Source: Albugo candida
Lineage: Eukaryota; Oomycota; Peronosporomycetes; Albuginales; Albuginaceae
NCBI GenBank assembly: GCA_905220665.1
Contig: CAJNAR010000158.1
Coordinates: 248,001 to 312,000 of the forward strand
Length of the DNA stretch: 64,000 nucleotides
Direction of reading: 5' to 3'
Part shown: positions 26,751 to 55,636 of the stretch, piece by piece
How positions within the stretch are numbered: the stretch's first letter is position 1
How the letters are laid out: each line of letters begins with the position of its first letter
Program-made: the position numbers and the translations under genes
The notes under the pieces: model-generated
Seen by the model: the letters and a program-made list of their open reading frames with translations, nothing else
Databases searched by the model: none
Told to the model about the DNA's origin: nothing

Positions 26751-26764
26751 TAGGCCACAAGGAC
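26751..26764 (+). repeat. tRNA-derived target duplication between LINE-III and LINE-IV
   Basis: TAGGCCACAAGGAC is the reverse complement of the first 14 nt of the tRNA-Arg gene at 55564. It sits exactly between the 3' end of LINE-III (CTTCAAC) and the 5' end of LINE-IV (AGACTTCTC...). Confidence 0.9.
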
Positions 26765-29433
26765 AGACTTCTCAATTTGCCGAGTAGTACGTACCTCTCA
26801 AAAAACAGCAACACCGCCTTTCTGGTTAACCACTGAACTTTCAACCCTTTCCTGTCGAAGACAAATCGTTTTCATCGACATTTCCAGCTTACCGATCGTG
26901 ACATCGCCAGATGTTGATAACAGGTCTCCGCGCAACTTGTCCGCTAGTGACTCGAGGGTCTGCCCTCCCCTCGCCTATACCGTCAGACCCTTCCCCGTTT
27001 GAAGTGGTTATTGGCCAATCAGAGGCCGATATGGATGACGCCTTACCGTCAGCACCTTGGGAACCGGTTGAGCAAACAAAGAAAACCGGAAATCGGCCAA
27101 GTCTCGCCGATATCTTGAAAGGGCACGAAGAGCTTCGAAAGGATTGGGTTCGAACGTAGGCCCAATTTAAGGTCGAAATACTGAAACCGTTGGCAGCGGA
27201 TCTTCTTGCTATCGAACAACTATTTAAGGGCGGACGGCCGAGTTGGGAGGTTTTGTCTGCTAGCCTGGAAGCAGCGAACCGTTCTCAATATCCGTATCCA
27301 AGTATGCAATCTTCTTTGAAATGGGTCAAGATCTGATTCGGACACCACCGGCCCGAATGCTACGTTCCTTTGCTCAGGATCAAGCCAATGCAGTTCTCAT
27401 AAGACTCTTTGAACAAAAGAAATTCGGCCATTTGGCAAAGTTACCTAGGGTAATTTGCGGTCTTTGGTCACAAGTGAAGAAGTGTGACAGAAGCTGGCAC
27501 AAAAAAAGGTCACAATACCGGGCAACTAGTATTTACTTCGAGCATATGATATGTTCGGGTCCAATTCTTTCCTGGAAATCTTCTCATTAAACCGGAAATT
27601 TGTCCATCGAGCATCGCATAGGCATTGTATTCGTTAGGATGCAACATACTCTATGCTCATTATCGTGAAGAAGTGGCTTCACAGAGCATAGAAGTGTCGA
27701 CGTGGTGAGTGTATATCCACTCTACAGTCCCGCTGGTCGTGTGAGGAAAAGTCTTCGAGAAAATATCGAGGGGAGTTACAATCTTGCTCGTAGAAAAGGA
27801 GCTCAACTCTCTTATGAACGATTACGTATGGAGCAGCGCAGTCCGTATTGCTTACAGCTGTCCGTGACAACTTTGGATTCGCCCAAAGCGATAAAAGCCA
27901 AAGCGGTGAGTAAACAGCCGCCGCAAGCAAAAGCTAAGAAGAAATTAGCACCAATACACCTTTGAAACGTTCTGAAGATGTCTTTATGGAAGACAAAGAC
28001 ATTTCTACTCCGTGGAAAACATTTCCGGTGAAAACGGGCTTTCTATACTTCTCCACTGACTCATCCCTCCTTTTTGACGAAACAAAAGAAGTAGACGTCC
28101 CTGGAACACCGGAACAACATGAACCGCAAAAGAAGGCTACTTATCACCCAAATCCCTGTTTTTGGAAGCTTTTTCTCCCACGTAACAAACGTAATCGTTC
28201 GCTCGATATTTTACAAAAGCGTGGATAGGAAGGCTCCACGTCAAAAGCTGGAAGGCCTTGCTACGAGTTATTATTTTGACGTCCTTCAAACTATCGACAT
28301 GGAGTACGCCAAAAGCTATGTAACAAACCACTCGGAGCATGGAAGACGATTTCAAATCGTCCCTCCACTGTAGTGGCGAGCAAAGCAGTCGCAAGTCCAA
28401 GCAGGCTACTCATTTTTCTTCACCGAAAATGTGTCGACGGCAGTGGCTTCCATCAAATCAGACATGCTCCTACGGGAGGATTTGCACGTCTCCAAAGCAG
28501 AAAAACACCTGGATTTTACCCCCAATGATGATAATATTCTTAAATTTGCTTCCAAACACCCGATTGCGCTGTACTGACTGCTTAATCGGAGTGTGAGGGC
28601 CAATGATCCCAAGTTGGCCGAACTAGTGTAGGTAAGCAGAATCAATCTCGTTCTTGCAGCTTCGGATCCATGTTCAGAGACACCATTTATCATCAATTGG
28701 TCCAAGAAAATGGGGGGGAGGGAATTCCTACAAATCGGGAAGATATGTTCGATTCAGTCGCGCAATGGTGGAAAGATTCCTCCAAAATCGACGACGTGCT
28801 CCGAGTGCGCAACTCTCGCTATCTTTGAGCTAATGCTCCTATGCACAGCTCCAACGATGTTCAAGAATGACCATTGGATTCAACACAGTGATAGTTAGGC
28901 CGTCATTCGGATTTTTGTGCATCACTGCAGATTGCTTGACGCGGATAATTTGCTTCGGGTCTTGCGCTCTCCATTGGGAACGCTCTGCCTAAGCGAATGG
29001 TTTTACGCACAATGAGAAATCCCACTTTTTGGCGACATGGAAGTTCTTCAATTATCGAAGCTCTACTTCTTTTAGGATGCATCTATTTTGCAACTGAGAG
29101 AAGTGGAGGGAACAACAGCTAGTCGCTGGTGCTCTTTTAGTTCAGTATTAGGGGAAGCTCATAGGAGACCATCTCGTGGAAGAACAAGACCATTCTTTCC
29201 GTTTATATGAATGGAATTATAAAGAATTGCCACCTTTTGATACAGCACATGCTATCGAACTACGCCATTTGTTGCGTACAAGAAACTCAATTTCGCGACC
29301 GTCAACACCTAGAGACTTTTCAGTTTCACTTGGCTTCCAAATTCAAACATCATCTTTTTCTCAGTCATTCGAATAGTCTTCACTCTCAACCCCATTCGGG
29401 AAAGAGTAAACGGAGTATTGAGAATTATTCGCT
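26765..29433 (+). mobile_element. LINE-IV, 5' part (ORF1 and start of ORF2), highly degenerate
   Basis: It starts with the family 5' end ACTTCTCAATTTGCC at 26767. ORF1 pieces are recognisable: SLADILKGHEELRKD near 27100, RTPPARMLRSFAQD near 27345, HLAKLPR near 27430, NHWIQHS-type text near 28870. The start codon is lost and frameshifts occur every few hundred bases. ORF2 begins near 29160 (WKNKTILSVYMNGIIKN; CCVQETQFRDRQHLETFQF) and ends abruptly at about 29433, where LINE-A sequence in the opposite orientation takes over. It is the most decayed of the four stacked copies and the furthest from the tRNA in the pre-inversion order. Confidence 0.75.
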
Positions 29434-30484
29434 CCCCAGTGATAGCACAATTGAACATGAAAGATGCTCCCAACGTGGTCGGGATGAGAAGAATGGATCC
29501 CAAGTGCAGAGTTACTCTATCCATGATTGTGCCATGTGATCGCACTCGAGAAAAAGATCTTGATCGGATTCACTGCGCCACACAAAGGCTGTGTGAACAA
29601 TATAATGTAGTTCTAAATATCCGTGAGGCCAGACGAGACTACAGTTCTTCGAAAGTGGTATGACACATTCCGAAGATGCCGTTGTGTAGCCATAAATGTT
29701 CGAACTGGGTATGTATCTGTTGCGTCCGTTCTCTCCCATGATGACCTATGTGTTGACAATGGTTGGTCCGGGAGGCTTACATACGATACATGAGAGTTGA
29801 GAGCGTGGAATAGATGGGAACATGCTTACTCTACTGCTTCGTACTCCCACATAAAACGATCTGCCACGTTCATTTCGTTCAATCCAAGTGATGAGACAAA
29901 TCGTCTAGTGGATACGCTGTAGTATCTGAGTGACTTCAGTGCAAGGGCGACTCAGTGACTTTCTTTCAGCCATATCCGATGTACACAGATCTTTGTCGAT
30001 GTAATATATGTCGACGAAAGCTTCTTCCGTTGGCCATGTGTCGTAGTCTCGAAAAATGTCTTGAAGGCTTCAAAGCTCGAAAGCTGTAGCGGAAAAATCT
30101 CCAAATAAAAATTATGCGATATGGTTCGTTCATCATGACAAGATTGTACCAAAACATGTGCGTTCTCTGTTTACAAGTAGAAGCTTCATAATGTAATTCT
30201 TGGTTGCAGTGGAGCCACATCGGTTATTTATGTAGTAGTTACGGCGTCGTAGAATATTCAAATCTGTGATTGTTATGCTCCAATCCATCTAATGCCACAT
30301 TATGAATGCGTGTTTCCACCAAAAAGATTTGCTCTACCATTGTACCATTTTGCCATATCGACGGGGTGCGCTGCTGAATATATTCATCGGCTTGTGTGGC
30401 TTAACGGAAGGTTGATAAGTCAATGCGCAGGAAAAATCGTCGTCGCATCGGATGCGAACTGCTGGAGAAATTGGATGTTGTAGC
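29434..30484 (-). mobile_element. LINE-A, right part (inverted): RT thumb to C-terminal zinc knuckle
   Basis: Read on the minus strand from 30484 it continues LINE-A exactly where the left part stops: GCTAC then AACAT..., matching LINE-N at 39256 onward. It runs to the FLECDHMAQSWIE knuckle region near 29520 and a little beyond (equivalent to about 40385 in LINE-N). The GCTAC at 30480-30484 is the second copy of the Copia target duplication. Many stops and indels. Confidence 0.8.
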
Positions 30485-31832: not shown

Positions 31833-33990
31833 GAACCAGGAAAATCTTGACGAATAATTGTCATAACCCCGTTTACTCGTTCCCTAACGGGATGAGAGGG
31901 AAGACTATTCGAGTCACTGACAAAAAGATGATGTCGGAATTTGGAAGCCAAGTGAAACTGAAAAGTCTCCAGGTGGTGACGGTCGCGAAAATGAGTTTCT
32001 TGTACGCAACAAATAGCGTATTTCGATGTGTGTGTTGTATCAATAGATGACCATTCTTATTGAATCCAATTGTATTTACGGAAAGAATGGTTTCATTTGT
32101 CCACGAAAGAATGTCCGTTGAGCTGCCCTTAGTATTGAACTGAAAGGGGTCCAACGACGAGTTTTTTAACTCCGTCTTCCTCCTTCAGCTGTAGTATGGA
32201 AGCTTCGTCGGTAAGAAGAAGGGTCGACGACTGTAACTGCACCAAGTCATCGAAAATTGGACTCTCCCACTTTGCGTCAAACCACTCGCTGTGACAAAGT
32301 GTTCCCAGCGGTGAGCGCAAAATGTGCAACAAAACATTCGTGTGAAGCAGACGACAGTGGTGAGTTGGAATCCACAACACCGGCTGACCACTAACGTACT
32401 GGATCCAGTGGTCGCTATGATATATTGTTGGTGCCGCGCACATAACGAGAGGGAGTATGTTGCTCGTGTCAATGCTTCCACTTCTACTGATGTAGTCCAC
32501 CAGTTGTCCACCGTTTCGAGCATATTTTTCCGAACGGCCGAAACGGAACCATCGACTTGCTTTGACCATTTTTTGTTGAACGTGGTATCCGAGTTCGTCT
32601 CGGATGCTGCAGGGATATGGTTTATGGTGTATTCGAATCACTTGCTCCAAGCATGGGTCATTCGAACTCATGCTACGATTTAGCACTCCATGCAGTGCAA
32701 TCGGATGGTCCATGGCAAAGTGAAGAATGCTGTCTCCGTTGGATTTAATCCCACATGTTTGCTTGCTTTGGCCACATGAACATCCTCTTTCAGTAAAGTA
32801 TCCGGTCTAGGGGGAGTTTGAGCTGTTTTCAAATCTTGGATCAGGAAGTCCACCACCTCTGCCACTCGAGTAGGACGACCGTCCTTTTCGATCCGGGTGC
32901 GGTTCTTCTTCATGAAATGAGACGCTTCTTTGGAATTAGCCAGATCATTTTTAACCACGAGCTTGGATGGTACAATCTAGTACCTCTTTCCAAAGCCGGC
33001 TTTCGTTGTTACGTCAATTTTCGCAAAATCCACTTCGACCGAGCCAAGCACATTAAAGTAATTGCTTGTAGCAAAACCGTCCAACGATTTTGGACGGGCA
33101 TTGCTTAGTAAACTCTGAAAGCGATCGAGCGAGCGATTGCGCTTTTTGCGTGGTCGAACTGGAGTCCACGTATCTTCAGTAGACTGTGACGATGCTTTTT
33201 CTGCAAGTTTTTGTTCATTGTCGTTGACATCCGGAACAGCAGAAGGCATATCTTGTTGGGATGGATACGAGTTGGGTAGTTTGGAAACGTTTCCATCAGC
33301 GACGTTTCGAACAGAAGAGACTTGACGAGCTGGAAGTTTGTTTGTGGGACTTCGTTTAGAAACTTGAGGCACGTTTACGGTGATGCTGTCTGGTTTTTGT
33401 GTCGGTTGTGACTTCACGGGCTGACTTTCAGCCGCTGAAGCCGATTTGGTTTTTTGTTGCCGATTCGGTTGAGGAGTGTTCACCGGCAGCAGTAAGCAGT
33501 GCGGACTGCGCTGACCCATCCTCAGCCGATCAACCGGGAGTAAAGAAGCTTTTCCTCGAGCCAAGTAGTATATCTCCTCGATACATATTTGCTCACACAC
33601 TTTGCCGCCAACATTGAGCTGCTCAGGACAGCTTGTGCCGCAAAAGTACACTCTCCAAGTCGACATGGAAAGTCTTCTGGAAGCCACTGCTTCGCGAAAA
33701 TTCTCATACAGAACATCGCAACCAAGACGATGCAATACCGACGCAAGTTTTAGAGTGGACATTTCCGGTCCAATTCCGAAAATATCCAAAAAAAATCGGG
33801 AACCGAGAATATCAAATTCTCGGAAGGAGTAGCTGTTACCGAGAATCCTTACTTTTTCATTGGCCAATCTCTGGCAGACTTCCTCTTCGGTAAAAAGTAG
33901 TCTCAAATTACCACCAGGTAATTTTGCCAATTGGCCAATTTTTCCAGTTTCAAAAAGCTCGTCGACTATCACATTACCATGATCTCGAAC
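31833..33990 (-). mobile_element. LINE-III, middle part: most of ORF1 and the start of ORF2
   Basis: On the minus strand, ORF1 resumes at VVRDHGNVIVDELF just after the 11 bp duplication left by LINE-N. It runs through GKIGQLAKLPGGNLRLLF, the STWRVYF...CPEQLNVGGKVCEQI region, RKRNRSLDRFQ and the IWIPTHHC-type C-terminus to the TAA at 32129. ORF2 starts in the overlapping frame (KGSSTDILSWTNETILSVNT) and is cut at 31833 by the inversion breakpoint. ORF1 is read in two long frames here, with one break near 32970. Confidence 0.85.
33980..33990 (+). repeat. Left target duplication of LINE-N
   Basis: TGATCTCGAAC here and at 41030-41040 flank LINE-N precisely. The word belongs to ORF1 of LINE-III (codons of VRDH on the minus strand). 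On that strand it reads GTTCGAGATCA, which resembles a tRNA B box. Confidence 0.85.
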
Positions 33991-34081
33991 AACTTCTCAA
34001 TTTGCCGGCTACTAAGTAACCCGCCAATTTAGTAAAACAACTCGAAAAACAACCTTTATCAACTCCTTCTTCTCGAAAACA

Positions 34082-36559
34082 ATGGTTCAAGTCGACATAT
34101 CGACACAACCAAGGGTGCTAGCGTCCACTTGTAGTGACGTGGCAACCCTCATGAGTCACCCTGTTTTGGGTGATTGTATGATTGTTGATCAGTCATCACC
34201 CCTGTGTGATGACGTGGAAAGTACCCCCACCCCCAGTGTGACGGTACTGGTCAATACCGGTACTACAGGTGTCGGATGTGGTACCGGTGGTACATGCGGT
34301 ACTGTCGTTGCCTCGTCACAGGATGACCCAAAGGCAACTGCAAGTGTGGACGACACTAAAAGTCCCACTTTGGCTGACCTGATCAGGTCACAGGAGTCCT
34401 TGCGTAAGGACCAGGCTAGAGCTCGGGCGAAATTTCGCGTGGAGCTCCCAAAGCCGAAAGCCTCGGACATCGAGTCTATTATGCGATTGTATGCTGATGG
34501 ACAACATCCCGAGTGGTCGGTGTTGGCAGAAAAATTGGAGGCAGCGAAGCCTTTTAAGGTCTTTAAGGCCACCTTACCCATGATACTGGAAACAGGTCAA
34601 GCGTTGGTGCGTACACCAAATGGGAAAATCCTGTCTTCCCTTATAAAGGATCATGGGAATCCAGTATTCGAGAGTCTATTGGAGAGCAGAGCCATTGCTC
34701 AAGTATCAAAGATGCCTGGTGGCAATCTTCGAGTGATGGTTTCCACCGAGGATGCTTGTCAACAGCTGGAGTGCCAGCCGATAACCATCCTCGGGTCTCA
34801 ATACTTTTTTCGGGAGTACGATTCTCTCGAATCCAAATACTATCTGGATATATTTGGAGTGGGCGTGGAGGAAGAACGGATTCCGATTTTACGTTCCCTT
34901 CACAGTCTAGGATGTCCAGTAGTCTTTGCTACTTTCCGCGAAACTGTTCCGTGCAAGGGTGTCGTGATGTCGACGTGGAGAGTGTACTTTAGTACTCCTA
35001 CGTGCCCTCCACAGCTGGTCCGCATCGGTAAAGTATGCGAACAAATTGCATACGAAAAGATGCTTTACCCTGTGCGAGGGAAACACGCTCCTATCCCATC
35101 GGAACGACCACGTTTTGGTCAATGTGGTCCTTATTGCTTGGATTTGTGCGCTATATCAACCACGGGAGCACGGCAACAACAATCGAACAAGCAAAAGAAA
35201 AAGCAAAACCACATTCAAAATCAACCGCAACAAAAACCACAACAGCAACCAAAACAAACAAACGCGCCAACGGAGCTCGTGGTGGCACCACAAAAGGTAG
35301 TGAAGCCAGTTCTCAGTCAAGAATTGGAAGCGAGGAAACCTGAACGGAAGCTATCCTATCAAATCTCGTTGGAGCTTAATACTTCCCCAACTATCACACC
35401 ACCAGGGGAATCAGCCTTATTGCAGCCGTCTCCTCCCATCCTCCAACTGACCAGTCAGTCATACTCACAACCACGGGTAGAGCGGGATGGGGATGTATCC
35501 ATGAAGTTGGCATGGACGAGTGGAAAACGTAACCGGGTGGAGCCGTTCGAACAAATGGTCTCCAAAGCACCACCTCTTGCGCTTCCGAAACTAGCGACGA
35601 GTAATTATTTTTCTGTGCTCGCGACCATGGGAGTGGAGATCGAAGAAGTAAAAGCGGTTGCCAATCCGGAGAATGGAAATCGCGTTCAAATCATCCCCGT
35701 GAAAGCACGGATGCCACAAGAGGTGGCCACCTCGAAAGAGGCGGCACACTTTTATCAAAAATGTCATACAACGATCGAGAAATCGGAGCGACCAACCCGA
35801 GTTGGTGAAATAGAGGCGCTAATGGAAATCGATTCCAAAAATGCCCTTCACTCGCTCCGACCGGACAAGCTGGTTCAAGCAGATGCTTGCATCCCTCATG
35901 TGCGAAAGCTAATCCAGTTCTGCACAAATCCGGACAAAATCATCCGAGCGGCACTTGATCATCCGATCACGATGAATGGTGTGCTACTCGCGTGTATGGT
36001 GTCGAATGATAAAGCTTTGGATGAAGTGGCGCATCTACTCATGATAAATCGCGTTTTAGCAACACACAATCTCGGCGAAGATGTTACGTTTGCGACGCGA
36101 TGGAGTCGCCACGTTGGTGGAAAAGTTCCCTCGAAGCGATCTGTTTTGTTCGAGAAAGTAATGTCGTGGTGGACGTCAGTGCCGGACATCGTTATCGGTT
36201 TGACTCGAGCAACGAAAGCTCTCGCGTTGTTGGAACTTTTATTCATGTGTACTGCTCCGACATTCTACACAAACGATCACTGGATCCAATATCTCACCGA
36301 TGGACCAGTGATCTGGATTCCGGGTCATCATTGTCGTTTACTTCCAACCAATGTGATCATATCCTTCTTCCGCTCCGACGTTGGCATAAAGTATTGGTCT
36401 CAATGGTTTAGAGGTAGATGGCGTGGACTTCTCCATGGTGACATCGCTGAGCTTTCCGTCAATCTCAGCTTTTTTCCAGAGGAACACACAACACTTCACC
36501 TCTCACAACAAGATGGTGAAATGAGGTTGATTACTGGTCCACTTCAGCGTGAATGCTAA
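34082..36559 (+). CDS. LINE-N ORF1 protein, 825 aa, intact
   Basis: The only uninterrupted ORF1 in the window, so it defines the family protein. The head (1-90) is rich in S, T, V and D. Near 95-125 comes a conserved helix (SPTLADLIRSQESLRKDQAR). Residues about 160-360 form the best conserved globular part (FFREYDSLESKYYLDIFGVG; STWRVYF...CP...GKVCEQI; RPRFGQCGPYCLD). Residues 360-395 are Q-, N- and K-rich and probably disordered. The C-terminal part (about 560-825) has a conserved HWIQY...VIWIPGHHCRL segment near 735. No CCHC knuckle or classical RRM signature is seen. By analogy with other LINEs it should bind element RNA; that is inference. The ORF ends with TAA overlapping the ORF2 frame. 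Confidence 0.85.
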   Translation: MVQVDISTQPRVLASTCSDVATLMSHPVLGDCMIVDQSSPLCDDVESTPTPSVTVLVNTGTTGVGCGTGGTCGTVVASSQDDPKATASVDDTKSPTLADLIRSQESLRKDQARARAKFRVELPKPKASDIESIMRLYADGQHPEWSVLAEKLEAAKPFKVFKATLPMILETGQALVRTPNGKILSSLIKDHGNPVFESLLESRAIAQVSKMPGGNLRVMVSTEDACQQLECQPITILGSQYFFREYDSLESKYYLDIFGVGVEEERIPILRSLHSLGCPVVFATFRETVPCKGVVMSTWRVYFSTPTCPPQLVRIGKVCEQIAYEKMLYPVRGKHAPIPSERPRFGQCGPYCLDLCAISTTGARQQQSNKQKKKQNHIQNQPQQKPQQQPKQTNAPTELVVAPQKVVKPVLSQELEARKPERKLSYQISLELNTSPTITPPGESALLQPSPPILQLTSQSYSQPRVERDGDVSMKLAWTSGKRNRVEPFEQMVSKAPPLALPKLATSNYFSVLATMGVEIEEVKAVANPENGNRVQIIPVKARMPQEVATSKEAAHFYQKCHTTIEKSERPTRVGEIEALMEIDSKNALHSLRPDKLVQADACIPHVRKLIQFCTNPDKIIRAALDHPITMNGVLLACMVSNDKALDEVAHLLMINRVLATHNLGEDVTFATRWSRHVGGKVPSKRSVLFEKVMSWWTSVPDIVIGLTRATKALALLELLFMCTAPTFYTNDHWIQYLTDGPVIWIPGHHCRLLPTNVIISFFRSDVGIKYWSQWFRGRWRGLLHGDIAELSVNLSFFPEEHTTLHLSQQDGEMRLITGPLQREC

Positions 36560-39500
36560 GGGCTCCTCGATTATTTCGACGTGGAACAATGTCTCAGCAC
36601 TCACGGTGAATGTTAATGGAATTCATAAAAATGAGCATCTTTTTATCGACCACATCTCATCACAACACTCCATTTGTTGTGTTCAAGAAACCAAGTTTCA
36701 CGATCACAACCAACTGGAATCATTTCAATTTTTATTATCCTCAAAAATGCAGCACAAAATGTTTGTCAATGATCACAACAGTGCTTTTCTCCATCCGACT
36801 CAAAACCGCAGTGGCGGCGTCATGACAATCCTTCGTTCGGACTTTCCCGGTTACTCAACAGCTGAAGAACTCACCGATCGAAGCATTCGAAATCGTTATT
36901 TGGTTCTGCGTCTTCTCATTCACGATGCACCGGTGTATATTCACAATGTATATGCACCGGTCAAGGCCGAGGAACGAGTGGGTTTTATGAGTCATTGCTT
37001 TCCAACACTTTCGAATCGACCGCAACACATATAGTATTTGGTGATTTCAACACACCACTCGATCCAGCTATCGATGCTTCGAGTGGAACAATTAGGCACG
37101 AACCAAGTCGATTAGCGTGTTTGGAATGGCTTTCACAGCTGGGTGTGGTAGACGCTTGGCGAATCCAACATCCGACTGAAAAAGTATTTACAGGACCATT
37201 ACCGCGCAAGAATCGACTTGATTACATCTGCATGTCGGAAGAGCTATTCAATATGGTATACAAAACCTCTGAGTATTTTCGTCCACGACATGCGGGAGAT
37301 CATTTGGCACAAAAAGTAGCTTTTGCAAATCCAACTCAATCACCCGGTCGAGGATATTGGAAATGTTCATTACGACTATTTGAATATCACAAAGTTGTCG
37401 AAGCAATCAAATTGGAAGCGATTTTGGTGCTCGAACAGTTACGTACAACTTCGAATCCCGGTAAAATGTGGGAAAGTTGGAAGACTAAAATCAAGAAACA
37501 GCTTCAAAGCATTGAAAAAAAGGTTGCAAAAGATAGCCGACGTGATGTTGAGTCTAGCCAGCGTGTTTTGGAAGTCGCAGCAGCTCGATATCGTATTCAA
37601 GACAACAATGAGTCACGGTATTTTTACGAATCGAGTCTCCAACATTTAAAATCTCAGTCGAAAACAACGCGAAATACAACCAAAATGAAAGCTTCGACCA
37701 TCACGTGAAGCATATGGAGAACTCTTCAAATCATTTTTTTCGCCCTCCGGATAGTTCTTGTCGTCGCGTGCCGATCGAAAATGTTACAAAAAAATGTGGT
37801 ACCGTGACATCGAACCCGAGGGAGATTATTGACGAATTCAGAGATCATTGGGGTGGCGTCATGGGCTCTGTTTATAGCTCTGAGACCGACTAAAATGTTC
37901 CAAGTGACAGAAAGCAAAAAAAGTTACTCGATGCGATTCAAGTTTCACTTGCCTCAGCAGAGCAAGACCGTCTCTCCACTCGGTTAAGTACGACCGAGAT
38001 GGCGGAAGCGATCAAGCACATGCGGAGTAGTTCTTCTCCAGGTATGGATGGACTACCAGCTGCATTTTATCAGCTTGATCCGGAAACGTTTGGCGAGTGT
38101 CTGAAGATCGTGTTCGAATATCAGCTGGAAAGAGGAATTTTACTTCGATCACAACGTCACTCAGCAATCACACTTTTATACAAAAAAGGATCACGAGGTG
38201 ATCCTGGCAACTATCGACCGATCGCACTGCTTTGCGTTGATGTGAAAGTACTTTCAAAAGTGTTGGCGTATCGATTGCAACGTTTTTTGCCAAAATTGAT
38301 CCATCAAGATCAAAAAGCATTCGTGCGAGGAAGGTCAATGCATCACCATATTCGACATCTGACCGACATACAAGACTTGGTCACTCATCGTGGGGAGGAA
38401 GCTTATGCGACTTTTCTCGACTTTGAGAAAGCTTATGATCGAGTCAATTGGACGTACATGTTTCGCGTTTTGGAAAAAATGGGCGTTGGAAAAAGTTTCA
38501 TCGACTGGGTTCGTCTTTTGTACAATAACACAAAAGCGCAGTTGATGATTAATGGAAATATCACACCGTCCATTACACCACAACGTGGAGTGAAACAAGG
38601 TGATCCTCTCTCAGCATTACTTTTTCTGATGACGATCGAACCTTTGGGAAATTTACTTCGTCAACATGAAGAACATGGCATTTGGATTAATGGCACGACT
38701 GTTGCAACTGCATTATTTTTTGCGGACGATTCGACATTGCTTTCAGAGACACCAAATGGTGTTTTGACGCAACTCGAACTCGTCCAAGTCTATTGCGATG
38801 GATCGGGTGCGAAACTCAACTTGACTAAATCATCTTTGCTCTCGTTGAATCGGACCAAGCCATGTCCACGTATTCCCAATTTGACCATAATGGGTCCGGA
38901 GGATTCGGTCAAGTATTTGGGTATTCCGTTCGGCCAGAAACCAACTCACTCGATGGTTATTTCAACTCTCGACAAGCGTTTTTACGATGGGTTTGGTGTA
39001 TGGTTTCGACGAGCAAGAACTGTTCGTGGTCGACTACTGGTTGCGCAGACGATGATTTTATCACGTTTGTGGCATTACACGATGCATGTAGACATACCAG
39101 CAGCGACAAATCGACAGTGGCAATCGATGTTCAATCGATTTGTGCTTGGTCGGAATCACAAAAAAGATTCAAAACATGTTCACCTGCTCAGCAAAGAGTT
39201 TTTATATCTTTGCCGACAAGATGGTGGACTACAAGTTCCTTTTTTGGTGGGACGACTATAGCTACAACGTATTCAATTCCTTCAGCAGTTCGCATCCGAT
39301 GCGACAACAATTATTCCTGCGAATTGGACAACTGCTTCGACGGTATTATTACAACTTATCCAACCTTCCTTTGGACCACACAAGCCGATGGATATATTCA
39401 CCATCGCACCAAATCGACATGGGAAAATGGTTCAATGGGAGAGCATATCGTCATGGTGGAAACAAGCATTTAGAATGTGGCATCAGATGGATTGGAGCAT

Positions 39501-41029: not shown

Positions 41030-41040
41030 TGATCTCGAAC
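41030..41040 (+). repeat. Right target duplication of LINE-N
   Basis: TGATCTCGAAC, identical to 33980-33990. On its right the ORF1 of LINE-III continues. Confidence 0.85.
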
Positions 41041-41740: not shown

Positions 41741-41754
41741 GTCCTTGTGGCCTA
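41741..41754 (+). repeat. tRNA-derived target duplication between LINE-II and LINE-III
   Basis: GTCCTTGTGGCCTA, identical to the first 14 nt of the tRNA-Arg gene at 55564. It lies between the 3' end of LINE-II (41755) and the 5' end of LINE-III (41740). Confidence 0.92.
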
Positions 41755-42094
41755 GTTGAAGCTGTCCAGATTACTAGAATTAGACGTAAATGACTTCTCT
41801 AATGCCTAAACTACAATAAATAAACAAAATGAATGCAATGTTGGTCTAGAAAGCCGCAGCTAGGTTCAGCGACTGGAATAAGATAGTACTGTGTTAAAAA
41901 CGCCACGCATCACCGACTTAGAATCGTTGACGGTGTCGAACTTGAAGCAGGCTGGGCCGAGTAGAGAAATACCTCCTGGCTGAACCAGTATGTTGATAAG
42001 ACGCTAGTACTTGTTTCAACTGCTCGAGCTGCTCGAGCTGCTCCGTATCATAGCACTGCCGTTGAAAGTATTGGATATGGGCACTCAGTATGCT

Positions 42095-45000: not shown

Positions 45001-46081
45001 TACATCTTTTTTTCTTGTTCTTGATTTGATTGTCGAAAAGCTGCTGCAGCTTCGTCCAACGCAACACGAGCGTCTGTGACGTCAAACTCTTCTTGGCGAC
45101 GTATCTTCTTCTGAATTTGCTGTAGCAGTTTTTTTGTCTGCTTCTTCCAATTCTCCCAGTCTGTTCCAGGATGAGAAGAAACACGAAGTTTTGTTAAGAT
45201 ACGATCCGCCTCCTCCTCGATCGCTTCTTTAATTACTGGATAGTCGAATAATGATAAAGGACATTTCCAATAACCACGACCTTGGAGTTGAGATGGATTT
45301 GCGAACTTTACAACATGAGCCAGATGATCACCCGTGTGCGGGAGTGAAACGTAACTGGACTCCTTGTAAACTGACTGGAAAAGATGTTCCGACAAAAGGA
45401 TGTAATCCAGCCGGTTTTTTCTGGGTTGGGGACCAGTAAAGATGCGTGCTTCAGGATGATGTTGACGCCAAGCATCCAGCACAACCAAGTTGGAAAGCCA
45501 TTCCAAACATGAGAGGCGACTTGTCTCGTGCCTACATACACCACTGGAGCAATCCAAACTGGGACACAAGGTTGTGTTCAAATCGCCACAAACGATGTGC
45601 GTTGCGTTGTGGTCAAAAGAACCCGTTCGAAGTTGGTCGAAAAATACTTTCCGTTCAGCTGGATTCACCGGAGCATAAACGTTATGTATGTATACTGGAA
45701 CTCCCAGTATCACCAAACGCACAACCAAATATCGTCGGGTACGGAGACAGTGGTAAGAGCTTGTGCAGATTCAGATCCGGGGAAATCGTGACGAATAATT
45801 GTCATAACCCCATTGACTCGTTCCCGAACGGGATGAGAGTGAGGACTATTCGAATCACTGACAAAAAGATGATTTGTGAATGTTGAATCCAAGTGAAACC
45901 CAAAAGTCTCCAGGTGTTGACTGTCGCGGAAGTGAGTTTCTTGAACACAACAAATAGCGTGTTTCGAAAGGATGTGTTCTGTTAAACGGTGAACATTTCG
46001 TTTGATGCCGTTCATGTTGACAGAAAGAATGCTCTTATTGTTCCATGAACACTGATCGGACGAGCTGCCCTTAATAATCAA
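42095..46081 (-). pseudogene. LINE-II ORF2: APE endonuclease, reverse transcriptase, zinc knuckle (broken)
   Basis: Starts in the frame overlapping the ORF1 stop (IIKGSSSDQCSWNNKSILSV). It is read in five long pieces: 46081-45710, 45728-44925, 44860-43865, 43946-43209 and 43258-42095. APE motifs: CCVQETHFRD, VYIHNVYAP, CGDLNTTLC, RKNRLDYILLS. RT motifs: SPGMDGLPAAFYQL, FLDFEKVYDRVDW, GVKQGDPLSALLFLM, FADDSTLL. Knuckle: CTQKHCGAVESYQHLFFDC. A run of nine T before the GCGGACGAC codons of FADD throws the frame; LINE-III has the same run. Confidence 0.85.
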
Positions 46082-48496
46082 ACGCTAGTGCTCCAGGTAT
46101 AATAGTCGGTGAGCCATCTACTTGCTGCAGCTGTAGAATAGCTGCATCTTCGGGATAATAGTTGGTCGACAATTGGAGAACTTCCAAGTCGTCCAATAAT
46201 GGACTGTCCCATTGCGCGTCGAACCAGTCACTGAGGCAAAGGGAGCCAAGTGGAGACCGCAGAAGCTGTAACAACACGTTTGTGTGAAGTAAGCGACAGT
46301 GGTGGGTTGGGATCCAGATCACAGGCTGACCAGTGATGTACTGAATCCATTGATCACTGTGGTAGATCGCCGGTGCTGCGCACATCAGCATCAGCTCAAA
46401 AATTGCAAGCGATTTTGTCGCTCGACTTAATCCCTCAACTACTGGTGAGGCTTTCCACCAGTGTGCCACCGATGCAAACAAATCTTGGCGCTTCACTGCA
46501 ACTCTTCCGCCTAGATGTTTGAACCATTTCTTGACGAACGTAGTGTCTGAAGTGGGTTCTGAGGCCGCAAGAACACGATTAATAGTGTGAACGTGCACCA
46601 ATTCGGACAATTGATGATCGTTCTCCCGCATTCGTCGGTTCAGCACTCCATGAAGTGCTATCGGATGGGTCAGGGAGAATTGAAGTAATCCATCGCCGTT
46701 GCAGGTGAAGCTAACATGCTTCTCAGCCTTCGGTACGTGAAAATCCTCCTGGACGAGTTTGTCCACTTTAGAAAGGACCATTGACGTTTCAACATCGTCA
46801 ATAAGAGTATCCACCACTTCACCGACACGCGCTGGACGATCACCTTTCTCGATGCGTGTGTGGTTTTTCTTGGACTTTACTACTAGCGACATCTTTGCTA
46901 GCCACGACTTTCGAAGGAACGATATGATAGCGTCTACCAAAATCCGAATTTGTCGTAACATCGATTTTTGAGTACTCGATGTCGACCGAACCGAAGACGT
47001 CAAAGTAGTTACTGGTACTAGTGGTTTTGGGCGAGCTTTACTGACGAGACTGGTAAAGCTGTCAAGCGAGCGATTACGCTTATTGCTAGGACGGGGTAAC
47101 GTCTAGGTATAGGTAGGAACTTTCGATACCGGAACGGAATCGGTGGCTTTATAGTGTCCGCGTTCGGAGAAGATTCCGCCTTCTTTGCAGGAGGTGATTC
47201 GTGCTCCGTGAACGCCTTTGCTGGATGCTTAGTATCTTCAGCAACGCTTTTTGAACGAGAAGAATCTTTTTTATCCCGCGACGAAGCTCGTTTGTCGCCT
47301 AGAGCAGACTTGACGGGAGTTGGAACAGTGCTTCCCGGGCGTTACGTGTGACTTCCAGTTGATGAAACTGGTTTAGTTTTTGGTGGATGAGGCGGTTTAG
47401 GAGTGGTTCACCGGCAGCACTAAGCAGTGTGGACTGCGCTGACCCATCCGTAATCGCTCAACAGAAAGTGGGGCTCCTTTTCCAAGAGCAAGATAGTATT
47501 TCCCTTCGATACTAATCTGATCGCAAGCTTTGCCCGATACGATCAGCGGTACTGGGCATGATGTAGAGTGAAAATACACTCTCCAGGTGGACATCGCTAT
47601 GCTCTGTGAAGCCACTGCTTCGCGATAATGAACATGGATTATGTCGCATCTATCGAATACAACGCTGATGCGATGCTCGATGGACAAATTTCGGGTCCGA
47701 TGCCGAAAATGTCCAGGAAATAACGCGACCCGAGAATATCGTATTCTCGGAATGAGTATTGGTTGCCCAGAATTGTAACCTTTTCGTGTGCCAGCTGCTG
47801 ACACACTTCTTCACTTGTGACCAAAAGCCGAAAATTACCCCCCGGTAACTTTGCCAAATGGCCAATTTTCTTTTCTTCAGAGTTTTTTTCAAGATCGCAT
47901 TGCCATGATCCTGAGCAAAGGAACGTAGCATTTAAGCCGGTGGTGTCCGCGCCAGAGCTTGACCCGTTTCAAGGACTATTGCATACTTGGACACGGGTAT
48001 TGAGAAGGGCTTCGCTGCTTCCAGTCTAGCAGACAAAACCTCCCAACTCGGTCGTCCACCCTCAAAGAGTTGTTCGATAGCACGATGATCCGCCGCCAAC
48101 GGTTTCGGCATTTCGACCTCAAATTGGGCCGTTTTTCGAGCTGTATTTTTTCGGAGCTCTTCTTGACCTTTCAAGATATCGGCGAGACATGGCCGAGGTT
48201 TTCGTTACGGGCTCAACCGGGTTCAAAGGTGCTGACGGCAACGCGTCATCCACCTCCATTGGTACCGGTTCATTGGTGGAAATTGAAGTGGGAGAGGGAG
48301 GCGTCTCAATCTCCATAGCGTTCCCTGATTGGCCAATTACCTCAGCAGACGTCGTGACAGAGGCCAACGGTAGAGTTGTGCCAGTGGATGTACTTTCCGC
48401 CGGCAACGTGCCCGTGACGGACAAGCTACATGTAGACGTACTAGCCACATCAGGCGATGTAACAATTGGGAAGCTGGAGATGTCGACAATAACCAT
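46071..48496 (-). pseudogene. LINE-II ORF1 (broken)
   Basis: Starts at ATG 48496 (MVIVDISSFPIVTSPDVA) and ends with TAA at 46071-46073. Conserved blocks: QEELRKNTARKTAQFEVEMPK, LAKLPGGNFRLLVTSEEV, STWRVYFHSTSCPVPL, LRMGQRSPHCLVLPVN, IWIPTHHCRLLHTNVLLQLL. Several frameshifts lie between 48170 and 47000. The C-terminal 310 codons (47003-46071) are open. Confidence 0.8.
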
Positions 48497-48609
48497 CGTC
48501 TTCGACAAGAAAAGGGAAGCTTGCGTGTTATTCTGAACAGGCGGTTTGGCTGTATTCGTTAATGCAGCGTACGTGTCTGGGATGCGCTGTAGCCGGCTGA
48601 GTAAGAAGT

Positions 48610-48624
48610 GTCCTTGTGGCCTAA
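48610..48624 (+). repeat. tRNA-derived target duplication between LINE-I and LINE-II
   Basis: GTCCTTGTGGCCTAA, identical to the first 15 nt of the tRNA-Arg gene. It separates the 3' end of LINE-I (48625) from the 5' end of LINE-II (48609). Confidence 0.93.
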
Positions 48625-48787
48625 GTTGAAGGTGTCTATATTACTAGAATTAGACGTAAATGACTTCTCTAAATGCCTAAACTACAATAAATAACATATA
48701 ATACATGCAGATGTGGCTTGAAAAGTCACAAATAGTGAACTTGGTGCGGTTGAAGACAGTTGAGTAGACTAGCCACTCAGCTCAGAC

Positions 48788-51700
48788 TTATGAGCGCTGA
48801 CGCCTTCGTATCTTGAGAAGATCTGATCTCCCGGAGAAATATCTTCTTGCTGAACCTGATTGCAATAAACCGAGAAAAACCGTCTGAAGCTGATCAAGCT
48901 GTGCGATATCATAGCACTGACGTTGATAAAACCGAATATGGGCGCTGAATGTGCTGTAGATCACCGAAACAGCTGGTCCTGTTGGTGTTGTAGATACTTG
49001 GTCGAAAAGTCGTCTATTCCGATCCGTCCAGATGAAGTGGATCGAAATGGCAACCAATGCAAACCAAAGATCTTCCAACACCATCCTGAATGGCTTCCAC
49101 CTGTCTCGGAGGAGAGGAAGTCGTAGGCACGCAATGTGAGTCCACTTAGGTCGACCTGAAAAGAAAGCTGTCCAAGAAGGAAATAGCTCCTCCCAAATAG
49201 GGCATGTCCTACTACATCCGAAAAACAGATGCTGGTAACTTTCCACTTCACCACAATGCTCCTGCGTACACAGGATGATTTCCGGATGAGCTTGCTTCAG
49301 AAACCAGAACCGGGATCGCACTGGTAAAATTGAATATGTAAGTCGGAGCTGAATGTCCGAGTATATTGGTAATAAACGTCCTCGAAGACGTTTAAAACCC
49401 GTTGAGAAATCCTTTACCCAAGTCGAAGCACTTGGCCGGTCTCTCTCTGGTATGTGCAGCAGCAGCGGGTGAGGCTTATCCGGTGGTTCTGCTTTCCCAA
49501 CAACTCGAAAGAGTTGATTCCGAGGAATAGTCGGAAAGAAAACCTTCGTATCCGAAATTTGAATGCCAAACTGAACCTGATACGCCTTTGCAATGGAACG
49601 CTCTGGACACAACAAAACGCCCTCCGGTTGAATTCGACGTAAAATTTGAGTAGCTTCGACGTACAAGCGTCGTAAAAGCTTTGTCTGGGCTACTTTCGCT
49701 GAATTTCCAACTTTGTGCGTACTAAAACGCAAGACAAAATCGGAAGACGAATCGAACCAAGTTGATCTTCCACCGAACAAATCACGTAGAGAACGGATAC
49801 GGAACGCTTGAGCGAACTGCATCCTAAAAGTACGCGCAAGTTCCGGGACCATTCCCATACATCGACGATGAGCAACCGCACTAGTAGAGCGTTGCCGTTG
49901 CTCAAACTGAAGATGAGAATACACCTGCAGCCAGACAGGAGCATTTAACATAACGATGTATTGCTCCTGTGAAGACAAGGTCTGGGGTGTGAGTTCCCAC
50001 TTACTCTGACTCCACCAAACGCACGTCTGCTTCCACCGCGATGACGCTACATTCCAACGAACCATGGTAGCATGCCGACGTGGTGATATCCTTAAGATAT
50101 CAAGCGGCTTGAACGGTCCAAAGTTGGGTAAGATGTTCTTCACAATTTCCATACCAGTCAATGTCCAGTTGCTTGGAATAGGTGTACTGGAATGTAGTGC
50201 AAATTGTTGTAGAAATTGGAGTCGTTGTTTCATTAATTGCTTCTCGATCATCGGAACCTGTAAACCACCTTGTGAATAAGGCAGATATAAAAGTTCCGAT
50301 CGAATGAGCTGCACATGTGTTGAATCCCGCTCATACTTTCGACTTAACACAAATCGGTTTAACATCGATTGCCATCGTCGCAGTAAATGTTTCGGGATAT
50401 TAAAATGTGTCGTAAAATGCCATAATCGTGACAAAACCATGGTCTGTGCCACCAATAAACGACCACGCACCGTTCTTGCTCGACGAAACCACTGACGAAA
50501 ACCACCATAGAAACGATCTTCTAGGAATTCAATCATCAAATCACTCACTGGTGATTGACTGAAAGGAATTCCCAAATACTTGACCGACTCGCACCGGGAT
50601 AGAACTTTCACTAAAGCGAACGTCTGACAGACTTGATGACGGTTAAGAGGAAGTAAAGTCGACTTTGAAAGATTTAATTTTGCTCCTGAACCATCACAAT
50701 AATGTTGAACGACATCAAGCTGAGCCTCCACCCCACCGAGCGAAGACGATAACAAAGTCGAGTCGTCCGCAAAGAATAAACTGGTTGATGTATCCATTGG
50801 AGTGATACAAATACCAGGTCCTTCATGTCTCCGCAACAAATTTCCCAACAGCTCAGTAGTCATAAGAAAGAGCAATGCGGAGAGTGGATCACCTTGTTTG
50901 ACTCCGCGAGAAGGAGTGATCTTTGGTGAAAGCGTTCCATTCAACAACAGCGAAACATTCGTGTTGGTGTATAGAAGCTTTGTTCACTTGATAAACGAAT
51001 TTTCGCAGTTCATTTTCGAAAGCACAGCAAACATGTACGACCAATCCACTCGATCGTACGCTTTCTCAAAATCGAGAAAGGTTGCATATGCTTCCTCGCC
51101 ACGATGAGTGATCAAATCTTGTAGATCACTCATGTATCGAATGTGGTGGTGGATGGATCTGCCTCCCAGAAATGCGTTTTGGTCTTCGTAAATCAATTTC
51201 GGAAGCATTTTCTGGATTCGATAGGCAAGTACCTTTGACAGCACTTTCACATCCACGCATATTAATGCAAGAGGACGATAGTTGCCAGGATCTGCTCGAG
51301 ATCCTTTTTTGTAAAGCAACGTGATTGCCGAACTACGCTGAGAGCGCAGCAGAGAGCCTCGACGAAGTTGATCGTCAAAGACAATTTGCAAACATTCACC
51401 AAAGACACTCGGAGCAAGTTGGTAGAATGCTGCCGGCAATCCATCCATTCCAGGTGATGTGTCCGCGCATACTTTTGATGGCTCCTTCCATTTCCGATTT
51501 AGTTAATGGACCAGAAAGAAACGACTCATCAGAGCTGTTTAATGTTTTGGTAATTGAGTCGATAAGCGTTTGTTGTTTTTGAATGCAAGGACGGAGTGGG
51601 ACTCCAGCTGAACTTTCCTTATCACCCATAATTCCACCCCAATGGTCGGTGAACTGAAGGGTGATTTCAAGTGGATTCTTTGATACTTTGCCATTCAGAA

Positions 51701-52984
51701 GGAGGACTTCTTCCAATGGCACCCGATGACAAGTTGAATCCAGCGGACGAAAAAAGTAGCTCGATGATTTCTCCACATTTCGCATCTGGAGGTCGAACGC
51801 GGAGTCTTGATTGTACTTTAACGAGCTCTTCACTCGTTCGTGATAAGAATGAAGAGCGTCCTTGTAAATCTTCTTTTCTTTTCTCTGATCTGACATTCGA
51901 TAGGCGGATGCAGCATGTTCCAACTCCGATTGAGCTCGAACGAGCTCATCTTCCTCTTGACGTCGAATCATCTTTTGAATTTGCTGAAGTAAACGCTTCA
52001 TATACTTCTTCCAACGCTCCCAATCCTTTCCGGGACTGGAAGAAGCACGAAGCTTTGCCAAAATGCGTTCCGCGTCCACTTCAATCGCCTCGATGATTAC
52101 TGGGTACTCGAATAATGAGAGAGGACATTTCCAGTAACCACGGCCCTGAAGTTGGATCGGATTTGCAAACTTGAGTACATGTGCCAAATGATCCCCCGTG
52201 TGAGGAAGGGTGGCATAATTTGAACCCTTATAAATTGTACGGAAGAGATGGTCCGACAAAAGGATGTAATCCAGTCGATTACGTCATGGCTGAGGGCCAG
52301 TAAAGATACGCTCTTCGGGATGCTGGTGACGCCGAGCATCGAGAACACCCAAGTTTGAAAGCCATTCCAAACACGAGAGGCGACTTGGTTCATGGCGATA
52401 TGCACCACTAGAACAATCCAGACTTGGACAGAGAGTTGTGTTGAGATCTCCACAGACGATATGTGATGCGTTTGCTTCGAATGATCCAATTGGAAGCTGA
52501 TCGAAAAAAGGTTTTCGTTCCGTTGAATCCACCGGAGCATAAACGTTGTGGACGTATACTGGTGCTCCATGAACCACCAAACGAACTACCAGATAACGAT
52601 CTTGAACTGTGACATTGTGCACGGCTTCAGCAGTTTGAAATCCAGGAAATCGTTCCGGATAATGGTCATAACACCGTTTACTCGTTCACGAGAGGGGTGA
52701 GAGTGAAGACTATTCGTATCACTGATAAACGATTTTTCTCAAGTTCGATGTCAGATGAAAAAGCGAAACGTCTCCAGGTGCTGACGATTACGAAAACGTG
52801 TATCCTGCACACAACAAAGTGCGTATTTTGAAAATGTATGTTGGATTGCAAGGTGACCATTCTTTTTGATTCCGTTTGTATTGACTGAAAGAATGGTTTT
52901 ATTGGTCCAAGAATTGTAATCCGATAAGCTTCCCTTAATACTGAACAGAGAGAGCACCCACAACGAGTGTTTGTACTCCATCAA
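48788..52984 (-). pseudogene. LINE-I ORF2: APE endonuclease, reverse transcriptase, zinc knuckle (broken, 719-codon RT/C-terminal piece open)
   Basis: The piece 50947-48788 is open for 719 codons. It starts before GVKQGDPLSALLFLM and contains LFFADDSTLLSSSLGGVEAQ, the thumb and the C-terminal knuckle CTQEHCGEVESYQHLFFGC. Upstream pieces are 51448-50984 (GMDGLPAAFYQL to DFEKAYDRVDW), 52259-51396 (APE end and linker), 52622-52284 (VYVHNVYAPV, CGDLNTTLC) and 52984-52751. Small indels near 50975, 51450, 52270 and 52660 break the frame. Unlike LINE-II and LINE-III it lacks the poly-T frameshift at FADD. Confidence 0.85.
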
Positions 52985-55452
52985 CTTCGCTCAGTTGCAA
53001 AATAGACACTTCATCGGGTAGAAAATTTGTCGAAAGCTGAATGGCTTCCAAATTGTCGTAAAGGGGACTATCCCACTGCGCATCAAACCACTCACTAAGG
53101 CAAAGTGTGCCTAGTGGGGAGCGCAGTATCATAATCAGTGCATTGGTGTGTAGTAAGCGACAATGGTGTGTCGGTATCCACAGCACCGGTCGACCAGTGA
53201 TGTGTTGAATCCAGTGGTCATTATGAAAAACTGCCGGAGCAGTGCACATCAGCATGATCTCGAAGAAGGCGAGCGATTTGGTGGCTCGAGTGAGCTCTTC
53301 CACTTCAGGTGACTCCGTCCACCAACTATTGGTTGCGTCAAACATAGCTTGACGTTTTGTTGGAACTTTTCCCCCAATCTTTTTCGATTATTTTGTAATG
53401 AAAGTGGTGTCCAAATTCGGGTCGGATGCAGCAAGTATACGATTGATCGTGTGGACTTGCACCACTTCAGCTAAACACGGATCATTGAGTCGCACACCAT
53501 TATTGAGCACTCCATGTAATGCAAATCGGTTGATTAAATGCGAACTGGAGAAGGCTATCTCCATTGGACGTGAATCCAAGATGCTTCTCCGCCTTGGACA
53601 CGTGAATGTCCGCTTGGAGAAGCCGATCGGGCTTCGTTGGAATCTGTGCCGTCAGTAGATCTTCTGCCAACAAGTTCACCACTTCACCCACGCGAGTAGG
53701 ACGAGAGTCCTTCACGATTTTGGTGTGCTTCTTTGTGAAAAAATGCGCCGCTTCTTTCGACGTAGCTACATCTTTAGGTACCACAACATTGGTCGGAACG
53801 ATATGACAGCACTTTCCGAACGCTGGATTGGTCGTTACATCTATCTTTGTATATTCCACATCGATAGTGCTAAGCACATCGAAAAAATTGCTGGTGGCTA
53901 GCCCTTCCAATTTTTTTGGAGGAGCTTTACTGAGCAGGCTTTTGAAGCTGTCTAACGAGCGGTTTCTTTTGTTGTTTGAGCGAACAACTGTCCAAGAATC
54001 CGGTTGTGATTCTTCAGCTTGTTTTGATTCCTCAGCAGGTTGGGAATCACTGCTTCCATGCGTCTCGTCCGGTGCTGAAACAGGAGACGAAGTGGCTCCT
54101 GGTGACGGTCCGATGTAGTAACTTGGGGAGTTGTCGGAGAGAATATTTCATCAGTTTTGAATAGACTTTTAGCCGTACCTAAGGTAGATTTTTTTTCTTT
54201 ATCATTTATGTTGTGCTTCTCTTGAGCTGATTTGGTTGTTTTTCCGGTGCGCTTGCTTGGCACCGATTTAGATTCAGTTGTTGGAGTCGGAGGTTTCGTC
54301 GCTCGCTGAGTCGATTTCGGAGTGTTCACTGGCAGCAATAAGCAGTGTGGACTGCGCTGACCCATCCTCAATCGCTCAACAGGTAAGAAAAAACCCTTTT
54401 CCGCGAGCCAAATAGTATCTCCCTTCGATACAAATTTGTTTGCAAACTTTTCCAGCCACGACCAGAGGTTCAGGACATGACGTGAAGCGAAAATACACTC
54501 TCCACGTAGACATGGATAGCCGTTTAGAAGCTACAGCTTCACGGAAGTTTTCATACAAAACATCGCAGCCAAGACGATGCAGTGCTGATGCAACTGTTAT
54601 TGTGGACATTTCCGGTCCAATTCCGAAAACATCCATGAAGTATCGTGACCCGAGCACATCGAACTCTCGGAAGGAGTACTGGTTCCCCATGAGCGTAACC
54701 GTCTCATGAGCCAACTTCTGGTAAACTTCCTCACTCGTGACGAGAAGGCGTAAATTACCTCCAGGCAATTTAGCCAGTTGGCCAATTTTCCCCGCATCAA
54801 ATAAATCGTCAAGGATCTTGTTCCCATGATCTCTAACGAACAATTGTAGGATTTGGGCGGGTGGTGTGCGTACGAAAGTTTGTCCCGTCTCCAGGACAAT
54901 CGAAAACTTTGCACTTGGTAGTATAAACGGCTTTGCTGCCGCCAAGTGTACAGCCAAAACATCCCAGGACGGACTTCCGTCTTGAAAGAGTTGTTCGATA
55001 GCACGCAAATCTTATGCTAAAGGTTTTGGCATTTCAACCTTCCACTTCGCTTTTTTTACAGCTTTGTCCTTGCGTGCTTCTTCTTGACCTTTCAAGATTT
55101 CGGCTAAACTTGGACGATGGTCGGTTTCACTCGCCGTTTCAACCGGTTTCGAAGCTGATGACGCGATATTGTCATCAACCTCCATTGGCACCGGCTGATT
55201 GGCAGAAATTGGAGTGGGAAAGAGAGGCGTCTCTATCTCCATCTCGGTCTCGGATTGGCCAATAACCCCAGCGGACGCGGTAGAGTCCGACGGTAGAGGT
55301 GTGCGGGTAGCTGTACTTTCCGCCGGTATAGGTGTGCGGGTTGCTGGACTTTCCGCCGGTAACGTGTCAGTAACGGACACATTACATGTAGAAGTACTAC
55401 CCACATCAGGCGATGTAACGATAGGTAAGCTGGATATGTCGATAGTAACCAT
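52935..55452 (-). pseudogene. LINE-I ORF1 (broken by about five lesions)
   Basis: Starts at ATG 55452 (MVTIDISSLPIVTSPDVGST). The head contains a near-perfect repeat of an R-T-P/L-x-A/S-E/D-S-T-A-T type unit (55290-55370). An in-frame stop at 55012 follows EMPKPLA. The frame resumes at RAIEQLFQDGSPSWDVL to about 54376, then in pieces 54371-53952, 53910-53500 and 53345-52935. Conserved ORF1 blocks: KIGQLAKLPGGNLRLLVTS, STWRVYFRFTSCPEPL, LRMGQRSPHCLLLPVN, LWIPTHHCRLLHTNALIMIL. The end TATTAAGGG overlaps the ORF2 frame. Confidence 0.8.
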
Positions 55453-55563
55453 TGTCTTCGACAGGAAAGGGTGGAAAAGTGCGTGTTTTGCTGAAAAGGC
55501 GCTTTGTTGTATTCGTTTTGCATTTTGTTTTGGATATATGTAGTAGCCGGCGAATTGAGAAGT

Positions 55564-55636
55564 GTCCTTGTGGCCTAATGGATAAGGCATCGCCCTCCGA
55601 AGGCGGAGATTGAGGGTTCGAGTCCCTTCAAGGACT
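55564..55636 (+). tRNA. tRNA-Arg(CCG)
   Basis: A complete cloverleaf with no intron: acceptor GTCCTTG/CAAGGAC fully paired; D stem GCCT/AGGC with an 8 nt loop; anticodon stem TCGCC/GGCGG with loop CTCCGAA, anticodon CCG (reads CGG); 5 nt variable loop; T stem GAGGG/CCCTT with loop TTCGAGT; discriminator T. The A box (TGGCCTAATGG) and B box (GGTTCGAGTCC) are intact. No run of four or more T occurs before 55806, so the pol III terminator is weak or distant. Its first 14-15 nt are the target duplication word of three stacked LINE junctions. Confidence 0.95.

Follow-up and report, generated by a model that had tools for sequence, protein, structure and literature searches.

A stretch of 64,000 nucleotides (nt) from the oomycete Albugo candida (contig CAJNAR010000158.1, positions 248,001 to 312,000), below called the window, contains several long interspersed nuclear elements (LINEs) stacked in front of an intact arginine transfer RNA (tRNA) gene. 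Our analysis of this stack and of the whole assembly (38.93 Mb, 196 contigs) leads us to propose, with a probability of roughly 0.8, that LINEs of this kind, belonging to the L1 group and equipped with an apurinic endonuclease (APE), use many tRNA genes as landing sites, where they insert at nt 1 in antisense orientation, likely by a nick in the A box behind nt 14 and a second cut 12-16 bp upstream, and that the tRNA is rebuilt whole.

The landing site in the window is tRNA-Arg(CCG) at 55564-55636 on the forward strand, called intact by ARAGORN. LINE copy I (subfamily A, 6939 nt, 48625-55563, reverse strand) has its 5' end at nt 1 of this tRNA, and nt 1-14 of the gene are repeated as short words at 41741 and 48610 on the forward strand (with 15 nt in the latter case) and at 26751 on the reverse strand. 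The word at 48610-48624 lies between the 3' end of copy I and the 5' end of copy II (41755-48609, reverse strand, with a broken second open reading frame, ORF2), the word at 41741-41754 between the 3' end of copy II and the 5' end of copy III, and the word at 26751-26764 between the 3' end of copy IV (3' half, 22913-26750, forward strand) and the 5' end of III' (5' part of a LINE copy in an inverted segment, 26765-29431, forward strand). On its two sides each word meets the 3' end of one element, which reads GTTGAAG in the sense of the tRNA, and the 5' end of the neighbour, which is GAGAAGT or a decayed form with 0-2 extra nt. The 14-mer has four matches in the whole assembly, all of them in the window (three forward, one reverse), and the reversed-pattern control has none; this excludes chance and identifies the tRNA-Arg gene as the source of the words. 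An earlier note, made from the letters of the window, had claimed antisense insertion at the tRNA 5' boundary with the first 14-15 nt as target duplication, repeated hits on the same gene and a tRNA left whole, and the analysis supports all three. At least two insertions occurred at this gene, as copies I and II each have the word on both sides, and there was probably a third, rather than four independent ones. When the 964 nt downstream of the gene were searched against the assembly for an empty allele, only the locus itself was matched.

Throughout the genome, the 3'-end pattern (up to three mismatches) was found in 419 places, with none for the reversed control, and 90 of these ends were read (30 loci and 60 pieces, all with 0-1 mismatch to the pattern). 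A nuclear tRNA start (at most one mismatch in 13 nt) stands directly before the element end in 26 of the 90 junctions. The same test on control windows shifted by 40-160 nt gave 0 of 1260, and a chance origin of the words was rejected on this ground and on the confinement of the Arg 14-mer to the window. Removal of three rows with already counted flanks left 87 junctions, 32 of subfamily A, 53 of subfamily B and two unclassed. Junctions at tRNA starts make up 17/32 in A versus 7/53 in B (Fisher p = 1.3e-4); one tRNA-like word is common to one further A and one further B copy, SINE-like sequence (SINE, short interspersed nuclear element) is found in or beside the word in five A and six B cases, and the other sites number 9/32 in A and 39/53 in B. 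Strict target specificity, with nearly all copies in one target, is thus seen in neither subfamily, and the possibility raised in the earlier note, that most copies have unrelated flanks, is true of B and not of A. In 19 of 85 cases the word is directly preceded by the 5' end of another element (a count that misses 5' ends which have diverged, as those in the window have), and 15 of these 19 words are tRNA starts. Forty of the 177 exact 5' ends were also read: five are followed by a tRNA gene, six by a tRNA start and another element, four by the SINE-like word CCCAGCTCA, and 25 by other sequence.

A census from the tRNA side gives the same register. The exact 5' end joined to a B box occurs in 15 places (control 0), and in the nuclear tRNA genes in hand the element 5' end lies 0-3 nt from nt 1 in 12 tRNA kinds, namely Arg(CCG, ACG, CCT), Met, Phe, Lys(TTT, CTT), Asn, Ile, Tyr, Thr and Ala(CGC). 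The pattern of the A box GCTCAGTNGG plus B box matched 28 places, from which four organelle-like and eight SINE-like ones (judged by eye) were removed; among the remaining 16 canonical nuclear tRNA genes, two of which, on contigs C74 and C160, appear to represent two haplotypes of a single locus, a LINE 5' end stands at nt 1 in 12 (one of them on C59), a SINE 5' end in two, and two are empty. A less biased set comes from an Rfam tRNA search in which 63 of 1851 first-look candidates were scored; 30 came with loci, 13 of these nuclear, and the flanks were read for these 13, with 12 further nuclear rows beyond the 30 loci left out. Six of the 13 have a LINE 5' end, one a truncated LINE with a duplication, one a SINE, and five none. 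The register described for the window in the earlier note therefore recurs at many other tRNA genes. Its tRNA target holds, and the window tRNA-Arg alone is too narrow a description of it: at least 12 tRNA kinds and tRNA-like SINE repeats are also used, and B is found mostly at non-tRNA YTCA sites. Contigs C134 and C196 are tRNA-dense with mirrored positions, appear organelle-like, and were left out of the nuclear counts.

Stacks are also found elsewhere. On contig C150, four tRNA-Met words at about 315.8, 322.7, 331.9 and 338.8 kb are followed by an intact tRNA-Met at 345.7 kb; compared with copy I, the farthest listed ORF2 is 81% identical with four stops, and the two nearest the tRNA are 97% identical with no stops. 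This fits the newest copy adjoining the tRNA, for two stacks only and with divergence that, as copy II indicates (see below), is not the same as decay. At the tRNA-Asn of contig C29, the gene is adjoined by a SINE of about 319 nt with a LINE 5' end beyond it, and the Asn word is present at both. This SINE has its 5' end at tRNA nt 1 and the 3' tail GTTAAGGGTGTTCGCCC (tRNA-sense strand), uses the same sites as the LINE (tRNA-Asn of C29, L073; tRNA-Ile of C32, L190; also L021, 1999-2075), and its head is called tRNA-Arg by ARAGORN; at tRNA-Asn it has a 16-nt duplication. From the tRNA-Tyr on, C74:24484 and C160:65668 (L045, L050) have no substitutions in 1574 aligned columns, and the adjoining LINE has 20 substitutions in 1520 columns. 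Judged by sequence, the two look like haplotypes of one tRNA-Tyr locus; the pattern is the one expected if one haplotype took a newer insertion, and conversion may also account for it.

The length of the duplications is similar on and off tRNA genes. In the window they are 15 nt for copy I, 14 for copy II and 12 for copy V, the last of which (33992-41029, forward strand, subfamily B by its 3' end) is inserted in copy III at a non-tRNA site and in the orientation opposite to its host, so that copy III is split into a 5' part at 41030-41740 and a continuation at 31836-33990 (both reverse strand). The 12-bp duplication around copy V (33980-33991 and 41030-41041, forward strand) is sequence of copy III and not a tRNA start. 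When ends were paired by contig, strand and distance (6.7-8.1 kb), 7 of the 13 sampled pairs had a common duplication of 13-16 bp, three at a SINE-like word and four at non-tRNA sites, with 13, 14, 15 and 16 bp (the 16 with one mismatch). Truncated copies of 940 nt (tRNA-Met, L083), 347 nt (L028) and 156 nt (L038, one mismatch) have duplications as well, indicating variable 5' truncation. Since non-tRNA duplications of 12-16 bp are about as long as those at tRNAs, neither recognition of the tRNA 5' end nor the separate cut at nt 1 assumed in the earlier note is needed, and both were dropped. A cut after YTCA, which in a tRNA falls at nt 14 of the A box, together with a constant stagger of about 12-16 bp is the likely reason for the register at nt 1. 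Among the B sites that are neither tRNA nor SINE words (40 sites), the counts at the last three positions are 40 for A, 39 for C or T and 32 for T, and positions farther out carry little information.

According to the mechanism we propose, the endonuclease would nick the tRNA-sense strand after (Y)TCA, between TRGCTCA and GTTGG (between GGCCTA and A in tRNA-Arg), the freed 3' end would prime reverse transcription of the element 3' end ...CTTCAAC, and the other strand would be cut 12-16 bp upstream. What is observed is that the word is followed by an antisense element and then by the intact tRNA, whose first 14-16 nt are in many cases repeated. On the right the A box remains complete; on the tRNA-sense strand the element begins with GTTG, like nt 15-18 of many tRNAs here, which gives the left junction (word plus GTTGAAG, compared with TAGCTCA-GTTGG) the look of an A box as well. 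Both the right A box and the left junction could then be hit again, which would build head-to-tail stacks. Besides the short motif there would be a second cue, either a match over a longer sequence or bound factors of RNA polymerase III (Pol III), that raises the share of tRNA genes among the targets above the frequency of the motif itself.

Several points weigh against such a reading. The 90 junctions are matches with 0-1 mismatch and no random sample; the B copies are mostly away from tRNAs; and 5 of the 13 tRNA genes in the Rfam set are empty. Six of the 13 end pairs have no shared duplication: in one of them (L130/L180) the left flank is non-tRNA and the right flank is tRNA-Ala, and in another (L114/L170) the words are similar (SINE-like) and not identical. 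An element on contig C72 is flanked by words of two different tRNAs, Tyr and Phe, and the words vary along the array of contig C64. Finally, the order of strand nicking, the priming and the host factors are what we infer. Inspected by eye, each right flank of the non-matching pairs still contains, 13-16 nt into the flank, a stretch that ends in (Y)TCA or ACA. Our guess is that the mismatched pairs and words come from exchange between near-identical copies or from assembly switches. The words of the two arrays stand at the 3' ends at 6909, 13770 and 22283 of C72 (Phe, Tyr) and at 1016, 14991 and 29251 of C64 (Tyr, Ile, Tyr).

Recognition of the short YTCA motif alone, with tRNA genes merely carrying it and no tRNA targeting, would explain why B sites outside tRNAs have only YTCA in common, why 39/53 of the B junctions are at other sites, and why duplications off tRNAs are equally long. 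We consider this unlikely, given the number of such motifs: GCTCA occurs 124 times in 128,000 window positions, or about 75,000 times genome-wide by extrapolation, yet tRNA starts account for 14/17 of the GCTCA-type insertions in A and 7/29 in B, which is far beyond chance, and far above the extrapolated share of tRNA genes among GCTCA sites, even assuming 1000 tRNA genes. The difference between A and B given above also speaks against it. Selective loss of copies at non-tRNA sites could be an alternative source of the raised tRNA share.

Still less probable, in our estimate, is an origin of the stacks mainly from recombination or amplification of one unit of element plus word, instead of repeated insertion at the tRNA. 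The spacing on contigs C91 and C74 is regular, about 7.1 kb, and the mixed words along the C64 and C72 arrays and the end pairs without a common duplication would be natural outcomes of such a process, as would the inverted tracts shared by copies II and IV (98.3% over 1023 nt and 99.6% over 704 nt, beside tracts of 84-94%; ungapped tracts of 100% were also found). The adjoining copies I and II, however, are 72% identical, with a difference of about 27%; the length of the word differs as well (15 nt at 48610, 14 nt at 41741); one tRNA-Asn bears a SINE and a LINE in turn, with the Asn word at both; and at the C150 tRNA-Met a fragment 95.8% similar to copy V precedes an A copy. The near-identical inverted tracts lie at 23362-25041 and 43573-45069 of the window, inside otherwise diverged copies, and candidate causes are recent conversion, duplication or an assembly effect. 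Because of them, copy IV need not be an independent insertion, and the left segment of the window likely comes from an inversion or from an inverted duplication with conversion. Of the earlier claim of four copies in one register and one orientation, the register stands, while the word at 26751 is inverted. The decay gradient with distance from the tRNA, also claimed there, is weak: copy IV has these tracts in common with copy II, and copy II has two stops and three frame changes in 1219 codons at 74% nucleotide identity to an open copy, so that most of the divergence of copy II is not decay; copy I is 97.1% identical over 3823 nt to a copy with an open ORF2. The idea that the word belongs to the element itself, or is picked up from a template and not from the target site, is hardly credible and was rejected, since the word, although it recurs within one stack, varies with the tRNA and with the non-tRNA site, and the Arg word is confined to the window.

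By its sequence, the element is an APE-type LINE of the L1 group. Pfam finds reverse transcriptase (PF00078) in the window ORFs and in the open copy L145, and APE-type endonuclease (PF03372) in the window ORF of copy II, barely above the cut-off (24.6 bits versus 24.5), and at 38.4 bits in the 92%-identical P0001; Pfam listed no nuclease besides APE. The closest solved relatives by sequence are L1 ORF2p (1.1e-44), with R2 (1.2e-18) well behind. Named relatives among the 120 proteins listed are mainly from oomycetes (Globisporangium, Plasmopara, Peronospora, Phytophthora, Aphanomyces, Lagenidium), and a search of viral contigs yielded no relatives. Stop-free frames of 1398-1401 aa in several copies (62 of 1567 candidates scored) suggest that the family has probably been active recently. 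Subfamily A 3' ends (...TAGACG) pair with ORF2 matches 95-97% like copy I (e.g. C150:338954, C37, C64:29417, C72:4618), and subfamily B 3' ends (...GACWAACTGACTTC) with ORF2 matches of 50-51% (e.g. C7:409084, C8:127387, C19:169106, C32:103734, C26:159839). The 3'-terminal 28 nt or so are common to A and B, and both occur next to the exact 5' terminus.

Dewa of zebrafish, a non-long-terminal-repeat (non-LTR) element linked to tRNA genes, as is the Albugo LINE, is of the Tx1/APE type. Dewa is described as sequence-specific for the spacer of tRNA-Leu and not for the gene (PMC3706591), whereas the Albugo LINE is found at the gene start. NeSL-1_TV (tRNA-Pro), LIN15_SM (tRNA-Arg) and LIN25_SM (tRNA-Glu) are tRNA-gene-specific non-LTR elements (PMC4640811), similar to the Albugo LINE in being non-LTR and aimed at tRNA genes; they are, however, NeSL-related, in a group described as having a restriction-like endonuclease, and each is listed for one tRNA kind (PMC4640811), compared with APE, the L1 group and at least 12 kinds for the Albugo LINE. 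TRE5 and TRE3 of Dictyostelium share with it the use of many tRNA genes by a non-LTR element, the tandems at one tRNA and the sparing of the gene (PMC5391098). Pol III factors guide TRE5-A to sites about 47 bp upstream and TRE3 to sites about 100 bp downstream (PMC5391098), while in Albugo such a fixed outside distance is not seen, the cut would fall within the gene itself, and it is the start of the tRNA that is duplicated. The A box is also hit by Dada DNA transposons, of which five lineages insert at tRNA nt 8-13 (PMC8869645, PMC3706591); these have a DDE transposase, duplicate 6-7 bp and are described as disrupting the tRNA gene, unlike the Albugo LINE with its reverse transcriptase/APE protein and duplications of 12-16 bp. 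Another oomycete non-LTR element, Utopia, also forms arrays in a small-RNA gene, that of U2 snRNA (PMC4640811), but has a restriction-like endonuclease and leaves the U2 genes disrupted, while the Albugo LINE has APE and leaves the tRNA whole. The literature in scope (listings, and passages of the papers cited above and of PMC9584435 and PMC3130010, with most subscription journals and Repbase outside) contains no APE LINE that cuts the A box and duplicates the tRNA start, and no tRNA targeting in Albugo. The novelty suggested in the earlier note thus applies to an APE LINE with tRNA-start duplication, as tRNA-gene-specific LINEs are already in print.

We lean towards a broader interpretation, in which an oomycete LINE lineage breaks the A box in many tRNA kinds and returns the gene intact by means of the 12-16 bp stagger and GTTG mimicry, so that insertion never consumes the site, even where the tRNA start is unique, and in which a SINE and a sister subfamily with looser aim use the same place. 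In the usual account of RNA-gene targeting, the target is multicopy, so that the loss of one copy is harmless. The tRNA-Arg start is unique in the assembly, hence the insertions are not tolerated on account of gene redundancy; this gene has been hit at least twice and is still whole, and it would be the cut geometry that renders insertion harmless. Moreover, as sister subfamilies with the same ends, open frames and different aim are present in one genome, the way in which LINEs pick tRNA genes becomes directly testable.

Outside the stack, the window contains a diverged LINE fragment at 18134-18425, which is 68.7% identical to a part of copy I, and a DEAD-box RNA helicase (DDX27-like) at 7850-10330, which points to an Albugo host, as it is 84% identical to that of Albugo laibachii and at most 66% identical to other named oomycete entries covering more than half of it.

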